Positions 39,356-44,581 of a DNA stretch of 64,000 nucleotides are shown piece after piece. Numbering within the stretch: the stretch's first letter is position 1; each line of letters opens with the position of its first letter. Below the pieces are notes generated by a model. That model saw nothing but the letters and a program-made list of their open reading frames with translations, did no database searches and was not told the DNA's origin. The position numbers and the translations under genes are program-made. The stretch is from Actinomycetota bacterium (GTDB lineage: Bacteria; Actinomycetota; Geothermincolia; Geothermincolales; RBG-13-55-18), in the NCBI GenBank assembly GCA_014360645.1, contig JACIXD010000006.1, positions 1 to 64,000 on the forward strand, written 5' to 3'.

Positions 39356-39853
39356 ATGAAATGCCCCTTTTGCGGTTTCCCGGACAGCAAGGTGATCGAC
39401 TCGCGAAGCGCGGACGGCGGTCAAGTGATCAGGCGCCGCAGGGCCTGCAAGGGTTGCGGAAAGAGGTTCACCACCTTTGAGCGCTTCGAGCAGTTTCCCG
39501 TGGCGGTAATCAAGCGAAGCGGAGACAAAGAGCCCTACCGCAAGGAGAAGATACTGGTGGGACTGCGCAAGGCCTTCGAGAAAAGGCCTGTGACCAGCCA
39601 GCAGATAGAGGACCTGGCGACGGAGATAGAGGCAGAGCTGAGGTCGGAGGGAAAGAGCGAGATACCTTCCAGCGCCATCGGCATGGCGGTGCTGCGGAAG
39701 CTGAAGGAGGTGGACGAGGTGGCGTACTTGAGGTTCGCCTCCGTGTACAAGGAGTTCAAGGATCTGAGCGAGTTCCAGAGCGAGCTGGGGCAGCTCCTGG
39801 AGAAAAAGAGCGCAAGTGAGCGTGGGTGCGCGGAAAGGGGGGAACTGAGTTGA
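39356..39853 (+). CDS. nrdR: NrdR ribonucleotide reductase repressor
   Basis: 165 aa. N-terminal zinc ribbon (CPFCGFPDSKVIDSR, RACKGCGKRFTTFERFE) followed by an ATP-cone (VIKRSGDKEPYRKEKILVGL). NrdR senses ATP/dATP and represses reductase genes at NrdR boxes, two of which lie in its own promoter, so it autoregulates and controls nrdD. Slightly extended at the C-terminus. Its TGA overlaps the TTG of nrdD (TTGA). Confidence 0.97.
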   Translation: MKCPFCGFPDSKVIDSRSADGGQVIRRRRACKGCGKRFTTFERFEQFPVAVIKRSGDKEPYRKEKILVGLRKAFEKRPVTSQQIEDLATEIEAELRSEGKSEIPSSAIGMAVLRKLKEVDEVAYLRFASVYKEFKDLSEFQSELGQLLEKKSASERGCAERGELS

Positions 39854-42800
39854 CGGCGGCAAGCAATATAAGGGTTCTGAAGAGGAGGGAGAGGGCGGAG
39901 GACGCCACGGATATCGCCCTTCTGGTGAGCACCTCCTCCAAGGAGGAGATAAACCTCTGGGACAAGAGCAAGATCGTGGATTCTTTAATCCTGGAGACGG
40001 ACGCCAGCCCGGAGCTCGCCCGGCTCATCGCGGACCGGGTGGAGCAGCGGATCGTGGAGGGACACATGAACACCGTGACCACCTCCATAATCCGCGAGCT
40101 GGTGGACCTTGAGCTCCTGGAGCGAGGGCTGGGCACCATGCATAAGCGTCACTCCCACCTCGGCCTCCCCATGTACGACGTGGAGCAGATCATCACCAGC
40201 GCCAACAAGGAGAACAGCAACACCACCCACAACCCGGAGTCCATCAACCTCACCCTGGCGGAGGCCATCCTCAAGGAGTTCGCGCTGCGCAAGGTCTTCT
40301 CGGAGGATATCGCCCGCGCCCACATGGTGGGCGACATCCACCTCCACGACCTCGGATTCATCATCCGGCCCTATTCCTATCTCGGCGACACCGTGATCCA
40401 CTGGCGCGTCAAGGGCTCGCCCCTGGTGTTCACCACCACCATGGAGCAGCTCTATCACCTCCTGGGAGGCGAGACCCGTCCCGAGCCCACGGTAAGGGTG
40501 AAATATCCCTCGCGGCTGGAGATCCTCGACCGCGGGGGCAACTGGACGGAGATCAGGCGGGTGGTCAAGAAGGACCGCCTGGGCAAGCAGATGATCTTCC
40601 TGGCCACCTCGGACGGAAAGCGCATCGTGGTGACCCACGACCACCCGGTGATCACCACCGACGACGTCAAGCCCGCTTCCCTGGTGCGTCCGGGGGACGA
40701 GGTGGAGACCATCGAGGTGGGGGAGGGCCGCGAGAGGGGTATGGAGGAGCTCGACATCGCCCACCTCCTGGAGGCCGGCGCGGTGACCCTCAAGTTCCGC
40801 TTCAATGCCGAGGACATGGTGCTGGCGCACCAGAGGATGAACGAGCTGGTGGCCGGCGCAGCGCGCGCCTCCCGCCCCTCGGGCACCGCGCGGGGGACGC
40901 GCCCCGCGGTGAACCGCGCGCGGGTGGTGATGGCGGAGCCGGTGGAGGTCCTGGACGTCTACATATACGACGTCACCACCGCAAGCGGCACCCTCATCGC
41001 CGACGGCATCTATTCCCATAACTGCGGGGGGCACAGCCTGGACTACATCAAGAAGTACGGCATCTCCCTGCCCAACATCACCAGCACCTCCAGGCCGGCC
41101 AAGCACCCCGAGGTGCTCATCGGGCACATGGTGAAGATGGCCTCCACCCTGCAGTCCCACTACGCCGGGGCCATAGGGTGGGAGGCGGTGAACATGTTCT
41201 TCGCCCCCTATCTCGTGGGACTGGGGTATGACCGCATCAAGCAGCTGGCCCAGATGCTCATATATGAATTCAACCAGCTCGCCGGGGCCAGAGGGTCGCT
41301 GCGCGCGGACGAGAAGATCTTCGTTTACGACCGCCTGAAGCAGAGCGTAGAGCTGGTGGAGATCGGGCCGTTCGTGGAGTCTTTCACCGGAACAGAGGGC
41401 GAGGCCACCGCACCCGTAGAGGGCGACCGCTACTACGCGGTCAGCTTCGACCACCGCACCGGGAAGACCCGGCTCGCGCGCATCTACGCGGCCATAAGGC
41501 ATGAGAACAAACACCGTATCGTCGAGGTCACCACGGGGCAGGGACAGGCGGTCAAGGTGACCGACAACCACTCCCTCTTCGCCTTCGACGAGCGCGGAGA
41601 GGTGGTAAAGGCCCTCCCGCGGGAAAACCCGGAAACGGTGCTCACGCCCGCCGTCATCGATATCGACTCCGTGCCGGGGACCATCGATGTGCTGTCCCTG
41701 CTGGCGGACAGCGGCGGCGTGGAGGAAGACGGCAAGGTGTTCATAGTTGCAAGGGGCCGCAGCAGGCTGGGCATCGACCGCCGCCTGGCGGTTACGCCGG
41801 AGTTGGCGCGCTTGCTGGGTTACTATGTCGCGGAGGGCAGCCTGGGATCCCAGGTGCGCCTGCATCTCTACGAGCGCGCCCTGGAGGCGGACGCCGTGGC
41901 CTGCGTGGAGCGGGTCTTCGGGATATCCTGCACCGTCAGCGACGGCACCTGCCATTTCGGGGGCAAGGCGCACGTCGCGCTCTTCGAGGCCCTTTGCGGC
42001 AGGGGAGCGGAGAACAAGCGCATCCCCGCCGCCGTCCTGCTGGGGGACGAGGAGGTGGTGCGTGAGTTTCTGGCCGCCTACCTCTCCGGGGACGGTTATG
42101 TATCGCGCAACCGCATCGGTTGCAGCACGGTATCGGATATCCTCAAATCCCATCTCTGGTTCGCCTTCACCCGCCTCGGCGCCACGCCAAGCATGAGGAC
42201 GGACAGTCTCGAGCCGCCGACCATCGGCGGGGCGGAGATAGGGAAGGCGGCCCGGAGGCACGTGCTGGCCATCGGCAGGCAGCACCTGGACCGGGTGTAC
42301 TTCGCCCATCCACGCAAGGAGAGCGAGCGGTTAAGGCTGATCGCTTCGGAAAGCGGAGCCCACGGCCTGCGGAGCCGTTCATACCGACACCTGGAGCCGC
42401 TGATCGAGGAAACGCTGGGGAACCGCGTCTGGTCGGAAAAGATCGGCCGGCTCACCCCGAAAAAGATAGCGGAGCTGCGTGACGAGGTGGAGAGGCGTCA
42501 GGCCGGCGTCGATATACGGCTGCTCGAGCAGCTCTACGGCCAGGACCTCACGGAGCTCTGTCGGAGGTACGTAGAGGATGCGGGGCTCCCCCACAGCACG
42601 GCAAGAGGCCTGCTGCGTGAGTTGGAGGGCGGCAGCGTCCCGGTGCACAGCTGCCACCTGAGGCCGGATGCGGTGCTGGAGGGAACGGAGTACGGCGGGG
42701 TGGAGATGCGCGGGGTGTTCGACTCCCAGTATCTTCCGCGCGCCCTGGAGGAAAAGGAAGAGGAGGAGGGCGGAGGCCGATTCATCGAGGCCCGGCAACT

Positions 42801-44361
42801 GGACTCGAATTTCAACATGCTCAAAGGGGGGCTGGAGCTGGCGCTGGAACAGCACCGCCGTCTCTCGGAACTGAGCCTTGCGCTGGAGCGCAGCGAGAAC
42901 CTCCTCCCGGCCTCCGTGCGCTCCATCGAGGAGATCGAGGGCCAGCCCTACGTCTACGATATCGGGGTGGAGGAGACGGAGAACTTCCTCACCGGCGACG
43001 GCATCTTCGCCCACAACAGCCAGGTGGTGTTCACCGACTTCAACCTCTACTGGAACGTGCCGCGCCATTTCCGCGACACCCCGGCCATCGGGCCGGGCGG
43101 AGAGTACACCGGCAAGACCTACAAGGATTACGAGAAGGAGGCCCAGACCTTCCTCAAGGCGCTCTTCGAGGTCTACCTGGAGGGGGACGCCATGGGCAAG
43201 ACCTTCGTGTTCCCCAAGCCCCTGCTGCACATCAACGAGGACTTCTTCCGCACCGAGGGCCACGAGGAGTTCCTGGACCTGGCGTGCAAAGTCGCCTCGC
43301 GACAGGGCATCACCTATTTCGTGTTCGACCGCGGGGACGAGATAACCGTCTCCCAGTGCTGCAGGCTCAAGTTGAGGCTCAAGGAGCAGGACCTGCAGGA
43401 GACCATGACCCCGGAGCGGATGCGCTTCTCGGCCCTCCAGAACATCACCATCAACCTCCCGCGCATCGCCTACAAGGCCAACGGCTCGGACGAGGTGCTG
43501 TTCCACGAGCTGGAGAAGGCCATGCAGATGGTGGCCAAGGCCCATCTTCAGAAAAAGGAGTTCATCTCCAGCCTTATGGCCCTGGGCATAAAGGGCCCGC
43601 TCTCGGTGCTCTGCGACGACAAGGACGGCGAGCCTTACCTACGCCTCGACCGCCTCACCTACCTGGCGGGGCTCCTGGGGCTCAACGAGATGGTGCAGTA
43701 CCACACGGGCATGGAGCTACACCAGTCCCAGGAGGCCCTGAAGTTCGGGCTCAAGGTGGTGGCGCATATGAACCTCACCTGCAAGCGCCTCTCCGAGGAG
43801 TACGGCATCAACATGGTGCTGGAGGAATCCCCGGCGGAGTCCAGCGGCTACCGCCTCGCCAAGCTGGACATGAAGTACTATCCCGCCCAGGCCATGCAGG
43901 TGCTCAAGGGGGATATCGAGCGCGACGAGTTCTACTACACCAACAGCGTCCACCTCAACGTGGAGGCGGACATCGACTACATCGAACGGGTGCAGAAGCA
44001 GAGCCTCTTCCACCCCCTCATCGAGGCGGGGGCCATCTGCCATATATGGCTGGGAGAGCACGAGCCGGATCCCGCGTCCATAAAGAACTTCGTCATCAAG
44101 ACCTTCCGCAACACCCATTCCTCCCAGATCGCCTTCTCGCCGGAGTTCACGGTGTGCAACGACTGCCGGCGCACCCACCGCGGCCTCCACCAGGCATGCC
44201 CGCACTGCGGGTCGGAGGACGTTTACGGCATCACGCGCATCGTGGGCTATTTCTCCAAGATAACCACCTGGAACAAGGGCAAGGTGGGGGAGCTCAAGGA
44301 CAGGGTCCGCACGAGCCTGAAAGGAGGTATGGAGGGTGCAGCATCTGAAGGTGTTCGTTAA
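39850..44361 (+). CDS. nrdD: Class III anaerobic ribonucleoside-triphosphate reductase with two inteins
   Basis: 1,503 codons from TTG 39850; 713 aa after removal of two inteins (40375-41022, 41296-43017). Order in the host protein: ATP-cone (RVLKRRERAEDATDIALLVS), catalytic barrel (HDLGFIIRPY|CGGHSLDYIKK, NQLAGARG|SQVVFTDFNLYW, AIGPGGEYTGKTYKDYE), C-terminal zinc site (CNDCRRTHRGLHQACPHCG) and glycyl-radical loop RIVGYFSKITTWN. It reduces NTPs to dNTPs anaerobically. With a redoxin gene downstream it resembles the NrdD subtype that uses a redoxin as reductant. Both inteins interrupt highly conserved catalytic segments. Confidence 0.96.
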   Translation: MTAASNIRVLKRRERAEDATDIALLVSTSSKEEINLWDKSKIVDSLILETDASPELARLIADRVEQRIVEGHMNTVTTSIIRELVDLELLERGLGTMHKRHSHLGLPMYDVEQIITSANKENSNTTHNPESINLTLAEAILKEFALRKVFSEDIARAHMVGDIHLHDLGFIIRPYSYLGDTVIHWRVKGSPLVFTTTMEQLYHLLGGETRPEPTVRVKYPSRLEILDRGGNWTEIRRVVKKDRLGKQMIFLATSDGKRIVVTHDHPVITTDDVKPASLVRPGDEVETIEVGEGRERGMEELDIAHLLEAGAVTLKFRFNAEDMVLAHQRMNELVAGAARASRPSGTARGTRPAVNRARVVMAEPVEVLDVYIYDVTTASGTLIADGIYSHNCGGHSLDYIKKYGISLPNITSTSRPAKHPEVLIGHMVKMASTLQSHYAGAIGWEAVNMFFAPYLVGLGYDRIKQLAQMLIYEFNQLAGARGSLRADEKIFVYDRLKQSVELVEIGPFVESFTGTEGEATAPVEGDRYYAVSFDHRTGKTRLARIYAAIRHENKHRIVEVTTGQGQAVKVTDNHSLFAFDERGEVVKALPRENPETVLTPAVIDIDSVPGTIDVLSLLADSGGVEEDGKVFIVARGRSRLGIDRRLAVTPELARLLGYYVAEGSLGSQVRLHLYERALEADAVACVERVFGISCTVSDGTCHFGGKAHVALFEALCGRGAENKRIPAAVLLGDEEVVREFLAAYLSGDGYVSRNRIGCSTVSDILKSHLWFAFTRLGATPSMRTDSLEPPTIGGAEIGKAARRHVLAIGRQHLDRVYFAHPRKESERLRLIASESGAHGLRSRSYRHLEPLIEETLGNRVWSEKIGRLTPKKIAELRDEVERRQAGVDIRLLEQLYGQDLTELCRRYVEDAGLPHSTARGLLRELEGGSVPVHSCHLRPDAVLEGTEYGGVEMRGVFDSQYLPRALEEKEEEEGGGRFIEARQLDSNFNMLKGGLELALEQHRRLSELSLALERSENLLPASVRSIEEIEGQPYVYDIGVEETENFLTGDGIFAHNSQVVFTDFNLYWNVPRHFRDTPAIGPGGEYTGKTYKDYEKEAQTFLKALFEVYLEGDAMGKTFVFPKPLLHINEDFFRTEGHEEFLDLACKVASRQGITYFVFDRGDEITVSQCCRLKLRLKEQDLQETMTPERMRFSALQNITINLPRIAYKANGSDEVLFHELEKAMQMVAKAHLQKKEFISSLMALGIKGPLSVLCDDKDGEPYLRLDRLTYLAGLLGLNEMVQYHTGMELHQSQEALKFGLKVVAHMNLTCKRLSEEYGINMVLEESPAESSGYRLAKLDMKYYPAQAMQVLKGDIERDEFYYTNSVHLNVEADIDYIERVQKQSLFHPLIEAGAICHIWLGEHEPDPASIKNFVIKTFRNTHSSQIAFSPEFTVCNDCRRTHRGLHQACPHCGSEDVYGITRIVGYFSKITTWNKGKVGELKDRVRTSLKGGMEGAASEGVR
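40375..41022 (+). mobile_element. Mini-intein 1 in nrdD (216 aa, no endonuclease domain)
   Basis: Starts with Ser (SYLGDTVIHWRVKG, block A) after host RPY and ends IADGIYSHN before host Cys (CGGHS). Block B is RIVVTHDHPVITTD with the Thr-x-x-His pattern; block F/G is VEVLDVYIYDVTTASG then HN. The middle has no LAGLIDADG motif, so this is a mini-intein or one that lost its endonuclease. The junction residue +1 is Cys. Confidence 0.88.
41296..43017 (+). mobile_element. Intein 2 in nrdD (574 aa, LAGLIDADG endonuclease type)
   Basis: Starts SLRADEKIFVYDRLKQS after host GARG and ends FLTGDGIFAHN before host Ser (SQVVF). Block B: QAVKVTDNHSLFAF. Blocks C and E: LLGYYVAEGSLGSQ and FLAAYLSGDGYVSR, two LAGLIDADG-like motifs with acidic residues in place, so homing activity is possible. 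Length and block order are those of a full intein. Confidence 0.9.
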
Positions 44362-44581
44362 GCAGGACTGCAACAAGTGTCCGGCCGCCAAGGAGATCGC
44401 CGGTCGTTTTCCCCGCACGGAGATATACGACATCGAGGAAGTGGACGGGCTGGCGGAGGCGGCGTTCTACAGCGTGCTCTGCACGCCCTCCATCATCGTG
44501 GTCGACGACAGCGGGCGCGAGGTGCATGCCTGGCGCTGCGAGGTGCCCTCGCCGCGCGACGTGGCGGAGCACCTGAACTGA
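44336..44581 (+). CDS. Redoxin (glutaredoxin/NrdH-like) with CNKC motif
   Basis: 81 aa from GTG 44336; AAGGAGG at 44321-44327, overlapping the end of nrdD by 26 nt. Thioredoxin fold: LKVFVKQDCNKCPAAKEIAG with active-site CNKC, cis-Pro in CTPSIIVVDDSGRE. Probably the thiol reductant of NrdD, as in subtypes that use a redoxin and not formate. An alternative is a general thiol-disulfide protein. Confidence 0.88.
   Translation: MQHLKVFVKQDCNKCPAAKEIAGRFPRTEIYDIEEVDGLAEAAFYSVLCTPSIIVVDDSGREVHAWRCEVPSPRDVAEHLN

Follow-up and report, generated by a model that had tools for sequence, protein, structure and literature searches.

The nrdD gene studied here lies in a window of 64,000 nucleotides from the contig JACIXD010000006.1 (the whole stretch of DNA that was analysed), which belongs to a metagenome-assembled genome of the Candidatus Solincola group (Actinomycetota, Geothermincolia, Geothermincolales) of 3.38 Mb in 34 contigs with 2.6% contamination and only one nrdD. 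An nrdR frame (39356-39853), identified by eye from its translation, precedes nrdD, and nrdG (TIGR02495) is located downstream after a redoxin-like frame, so that the gene order nrdR-nrdD-redoxin-nrdG is intact. The nrdD reading frame is interrupted by two inserts, designated inteins a and b, and its features are as follows.

39850..44361, + strand: nrdD precursor ORF, TTG start, 1503 aa, class III ribonucleotide reductase (NRDD 1.5e-137; TIGR02487 415 bits over cut-off)
39850..40374, + strand: N-extein, 175 aa, weak ATP-cone match below the Pfam cut-off
40375-41022, + strand: intein a, a 216-aa mini-intein with Ser1, TxxH block B, Asp in block F, HN end and +1 Cys
40741..40851, + strand: conserved linker of intein a, occupying the position of the LAGLIDADG endonuclease of same-site relatives (alignment with the 424-aa allele of genome G025)
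41023..41295, + strand: middle extein, 91 aa, starting at the beta-A catalytic cysteine (CGGHSL)
41296-43017, + strand: intein b, 574 aa, with LAGLIDADG homing endonuclease, Ser1, HN end and +1 Ser
41806..41844, + strand: LAGLIDADG motif 1 (LLGYYVAEG), acidic residue kept in 7/7 class members
42067..42105, + strand: LAGLIDADG motif 2 (AYLSGDG), kept in 7/7 class members
43018..44358, + strand: C-extein, 447 aa, with SQCCRL, zinc-binding cysteines and RIVGY
43351-43377, + strand: SQCCRL finger loop in the C-extein, uninterrupted in this nrdD
44155-44208, + strand: zinc-binding cysteines (CxxC pairs) in the C-extein
44236-44256, + strand: glycyl-radical motif RIVGY in the C-extein

Removal of both inteins from the product leaves 713 aa (175 + 91 + 447 extein residues), in which all of the NrdD hallmarks are present, namely the beta-A cysteine (CGGHS), the finger-loop cysteine (SQCCRL), the zinc CxxC pairs and the glycyl-radical RIVGY. 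Pfam NRDD matched the ORF in three pieces (460 bits summed) with gaps at both intein junctions, Intein_splicing covered both inserts, and LAGLIDADG_3 exceeded the cut-off in the second insert only; among the NCBIfam models, TIGR02487 (NrdD) was above cut-off, and intein_Nterm and intein_Cterm each gave two matches. The first-pass annotation, made from the sequence letters, had described a 216-aa insert directly before CGGHS and a 574-aa LAGLIDADG insert directly before SQVVFTD, both starting with Ser, with +1 Cys and +1 Ser, respectively, and an expected spliced length of 713 aa; the reading frame confirmed each of these boundaries, lengths and residues exactly. The comparison with intein-free relatives that it had proposed was also favorable, as their NrdD orthologues (72–85% identity) are contiguous across both junctions, and the inserts are thus not due to chance. 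The GC content of both inteins (66–67%) is similar to that of the window and is uninformative about recent transfer. A whole-genome search for the Intein_splicing family found no inteins beyond these two, within the sensitivity of the model.

Intein a has the class 1 residues S1, T87..H90, H215-N216 and +1 C, and it is located at RPY|CGGHSL; in intein-free orthologues, RPY|CGGHS is uninterrupted. In 19 site-a sequences, the Thr and His of block B, the block F Asp and the terminal Asn are invariant, and the penultimate His is nearly so. When scanned alone, intein a fell below the Pfam cut-off and just below the NCBIfam cut-off; its profile matched the Pab PolC intein (2.6e-9) among the inteins of the PDB. 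The AlphaFold model (pLDDT 59) was poor and too weak to lean on, and the best 10 Foldseek matches with this low-confidence model were all inteins, with E of about 2e-3. Class 1 is defined by Cys, Ser or Thr at positions 1 and +1 and by a terminal Asn (PMC4031507), and intein a is predicted to belong to it by residues, insertion and matches.

The +1 Cys of site a aligns with a Cys of the Thermotoga maritima (MPYCFAY) and Prevotella copri (LTCVQH) NrdD and is taken, by position, to be the cysteine of strand beta-A, the one member of the customary reductive pair that class III enzymes retain (92.6%; PMC9669993). This residue had been assigned in the first-pass annotation to a key loop, which is not the case: the finger loop is the SQCCRL stretch of the C-extein. 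This motif is of the double-cysteine type, both cysteines of which are essential in T. maritima (PMC4493059). Additionally, an 81-aa thioredoxin/glutaredoxin-like frame with a CNKC (CxxC) motif (44336-44581) overlaps the end of nrdD and lies before nrdG; an NCBIfam search of this frame gave no match, and its product is a possible reductant of this double-cysteine NrdD.

For intein b, the residues Ser1, Thr89, His92, Asp555, His573 and Asn574 are invariant in nine site-b sequences, the profile matched the Pko Pol-2 intein (5.6e-37), and the best Foldseek matches of the AlphaFold model (pLDDT 74) included VMA and Pol-2 inteins and I-DmoI. These data characterize intein b as a class 1 intein with a putatively active LAGLIDADG endonuclease. 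Site b (GARG|SQVVFTD) is contiguous in intein-free relatives and falls in a conserved stretch (GGNQVVF in P. copri), and no sign was found that its residues are catalytic; the earlier proposal that the two inteins occupy different catalytic sites therefore stands for site a only. Within the family, empty site-b alleles agree with the flanks of filled ones at 27–34 of 36 bases, so targets for homing exist. The view that the small intein has no endonuclease and is fixed, and that the large one, with its intact LAGLIDADG motifs, could home, is supported by the relatives, alignments, trees and dN/dS.

The occupancy of both sites was surveyed in 31 genomes of the class (Geothermincolia), 15 of them in the family of the window, and further sampling of the phylum was added. 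At exactly these junctions, intein-free, a-only, b-only and a + b alleles were all found among the class genomes. Site a carries a mini-intein of 214–223 aa with all splicing residues kept in 15/15 genomes of the family (six genera); one genome of a second family, for which f2 is a working code and not a taxon name, has a 212-aa site-a mini-intein, pieced together from two loci that a contig break separates. The nearest intein-free relative, G016 of family f3 (likewise a working code), has two nrdD copies (L004, L042), both of which are empty at a and b. At site b, all three members of the window's genus carry an intein and the 12 other family genomes carry none; outside the family, the site is filled in G015, G018, G022 and G025.

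At site a, G025 harbors a 424-aa allele with LAGLIDADG, and G022, from the same genus, is empty, which looks like the pattern of a mobile allele. The alignment of the mini-intein with the G025 allele has a gap of roughly 200 residues that falls over the endonuclease, and the phylum sampling revealed other endonuclease-bearing site-a alleles in G097, G275 (380 aa) and G293 (422 aa). The position of this gap, together with the existence of such alleles in G025, G097 and G293, makes it likely that intein a descends from an endonuclease-bearing form and has lost the endonuclease. Note that the 424-aa Thr1 allele of G025 (L040) ends with KN, not HN, so its splicing may be slow or absent. The first residue at site a differs by type, being Ser in the mini-inteins, Thr in the endonuclease-bearing inteins (TYMGDSV, TYIGDTL, TYFGKEV, all with +1 Cys) and Cys in the viral ones. 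The Thr1 loci (L040:4447-5718, L044:2755-3894, L045:734-1873, L046:682-1947, L065, L067, L068, L069 and L071) belong to Actinomycetota, Desulfobacterales, Bipolaricaulota and one archaeon. Reviews admit Thr at position 1, and among the papers searched no experiment devoted to Thr1 splicing was found.

Within the family, the subclades of the extein tree recur in the intein-a tree. When the genus's three genomes were compared, dS was 0.38–0.49 for the exteins, 0.41–0.50 for intein a and 0.76–0.87 for intein b, and the corresponding dN/dS values were 0.04, about 0.16 and 0.15–0.20; by sub-region, dN/dS was 0.14–0.22 for the intein-b endonuclease and 0.14–0.35 for the intein-a linker. Both inteins are under purifying selection. 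The agreement of the trees, the extein-like dS and the low dN/dS all argue for intein a being inherited vertically and maintained in the family. Of the earlier suggestion that the small intein is fixed or decaying, the first part is thus upheld by its presence with all splicing residues in 15/15 genomes, and the second is contradicted by a dN/dS of about 0.16. The dS of intein b, approximately twice that of the rest of the gene, fits a later arrival, an older history or exchange by homing, and could also come from a different codon constraint.

The same data bear on two less favorable explanations of the locus. The genome also encodes an intein-free, vitamin B12-dependent class II reductase, NrdJ, so nrdD is not the sole source of deoxynucleotides, and the precursor could in principle be a non-splicing, tolerated pseudogene, with NrdJ supplying deoxynucleotides. 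However, no stop or frameshift is present in the three species of the genus, all of the splicing residues and the order of the neighboring genes are retained, and dN/dS is as low as 0.04 in the exteins and 0.15–0.20 in the intein; this very improbable reading was rejected on dN/dS. An artefact of assembly or binning, by which foreign intein DNA was joined to nrdD, might be suggested by the fact that the named relatives are themselves metagenome-assembled. Nevertheless, three genomes of the genus, each assembled on its own, have both insertions at identical codons, as do other families, a pattern for which the 2.6% contamination cannot account, and we give this explanation almost no credence.

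The locus is thus very probably an ordinary class III reductase that two separate class 1 inteins have colonised and that is spliced after translation; the splicing, the cleavage and homing by intein b and the order of arrival are inferred from sequence comparison. Each intein would excise itself, with Ser1 attacking the preceding peptide bond (N-O shift), the resulting ester moving to the +1 Cys of site a or the +1 Ser of site b and the terminal Asn cyclising to free the intein, whereupon the flanks would be joined into the 713-aa enzyme. Intein a would have been acquired no later than the ancestor of the Geothermincolaceae, the family of the window, and would have lost the endonuclease and become vertically inherited, and intein b would have reached the genus of the window later, or been exchanged since, with its endonuclease kept; the latter could cut an empty nrdD at GARG^SQVVFTD and copy the intein in. 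The persistence of intein a would follow from its location directly before the invariant catalytic Cys, where only exact removal restores the enzyme, and the rarity of exact deletion before an invariant residue would be enough to explain its retention in the whole family. Under this scheme, the absence of intein a from f3 (G016) would need a loss or an allele replacement.

A different meaning could be given to the same retention. Intein a is located immediately before the catalytic Cys, it is an endonuclease-free mini-intein under purifying selection in 15/15 genomes and six genera of the family, and other inteins have been shown to splice conditionally (PMC7765530), all of which would suit a post-translational switch, in which oxidation or stress holds splicing back and active NrdD is formed only in anoxic cells. 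At the same time, Ser1 in both inteins makes a Cys1 disulfide trap impossible, and the N-extein and intein a contain no Cys at all, the first Cys of the precursor being the +1 residue (392) and the next lying at 685 in the endonuclease of intein b. No cysteine pair for a trapping disulfide was found at a splice site (the splicing halves of intein b are also free of Cys), close relatives use this enzyme in an intein-free form, and the intein-free NrdJ is encoded. Such a switch is consequently unlikely, a redox trap was rejected on the number of cysteines, and the redox control point envisaged in the first-pass annotation is not supported, given the missing Cys1, the lack of any Cys before the +1 Cys and the presence of NrdJ. 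Domestication of intein a in another form, with selected splicing that times or conditions NrdD maturation via a signal other than a disulfide, is an equally slim prospect.

The reading of the locus as a doubly colonised reductase gains a broader setting from the intein-a alignment, which found 23 loci when 84,980 species genomes were scanned with it. Beyond the family, these included the NrdD of Desulfatirhabdium, Desulfobacterales, Bipolaricaulota, Methanoxibalbensis and Altiarchaeales, interrupted at the equivalent of site a; the non-family inteins end with WNHN before CVGWDL, and several of these genes hold more than one intein. In two viral contigs (IMG/VR L073, L074), NrdD has one intein at site a and another two codons past site b; this second one is a 26% relative of intein b across residues 1–574. 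Site a is thus an intein hot spot across bacteria, archaea and viral contigs. A viral source of intein a was considered and rejected, as no viral contig was hit when these were scanned with the intein-a alignment; in annotated phages, the NrdD matches listed were at most 35% identical and in single pieces, with no inserts in the region searched.

More heavily occupied genes were also encountered. The second NrdD of G097 (L047, contig G097:C23, a 1716-aa ORF) is interrupted three times: by a 250-aa intein at site a, by a 618-aa LAGLIDADG intein (b') two codons past site b, and by a 159-aa intein with Cys1 and +1 Cys immediately before the finger-loop CCRL (site c). Between the close relatives G097 and G275, b' is 618 aa with endonuclease in the former (L047:2687-4540) and 177 aa without it in the latter (L048:2662-3192), and site a of the same pair holds 250 aa versus nothing, so that intein shrinkage plus loss or gain seems to have been caught between sister genomes. 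The 1898-aa NrdD ORF of the Desulfobacterales MAG GMC2 (L071) likewise reads as having three inteins: one occupies site a, one lies near site b and the third precedes TVLHVYLG near the C-terminus. NrdD is densely targeted by inteins: insertion sites immediately precede both catalytic cysteine positions (site a here and site c in a relative), and occupied alleles span bacteria, archaea and viruses. The alleles of the Solincola family form a clean natural series (empty, a, b, a + b, endonuclease kept or lost) that bears on the persistence of endonuclease-free inteins.

Among the known systems, intein b resembles the Pko/Tko Pol-2 intein PI-PkoII (2cw7) and TliVMA (7qss/7qsu), in which Hint halves also flank a two-motif LAGLIDADG endonuclease, but the host of these is not NrdD, and the identity in structural alignments is only about 18–20%. 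Intein a is similar to the mini-inteins of Pab PolC/PolII, Pho RadA and Mja TFIIB, its best matches, in having the splicing domain only; it differs from them in host protein and insertion site and in a conserved linker of ~70 residues, part of which can be aligned with the segment ahead of the endonuclease in longer alleles. Two inteins per class III reductase gene are likewise found in the archaeal anaerobic reductase MJ0832 of Methanocaldococcus jannaschii (RNR-1 and RNR-2). The viral NrdD of L073 and L074 also hold two inteins as here, with Cys1 at site a and LAGLIDADG-like motifs in both, and inteins in phage nrdD were reported earlier, e.g., in Clostridium phage c-st (PMC3653736). The haloarchaeal MCM helicase also has two independent inteins per gene, with relatives carrying either alone, but both of its endonucleases are active, whereas intein a has none, and multiple inteins per gene are common in archaea (PMC10643990). 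The two-intein nrdD is thus a further example of a known mobile element and is neither new in kind nor a new switch.
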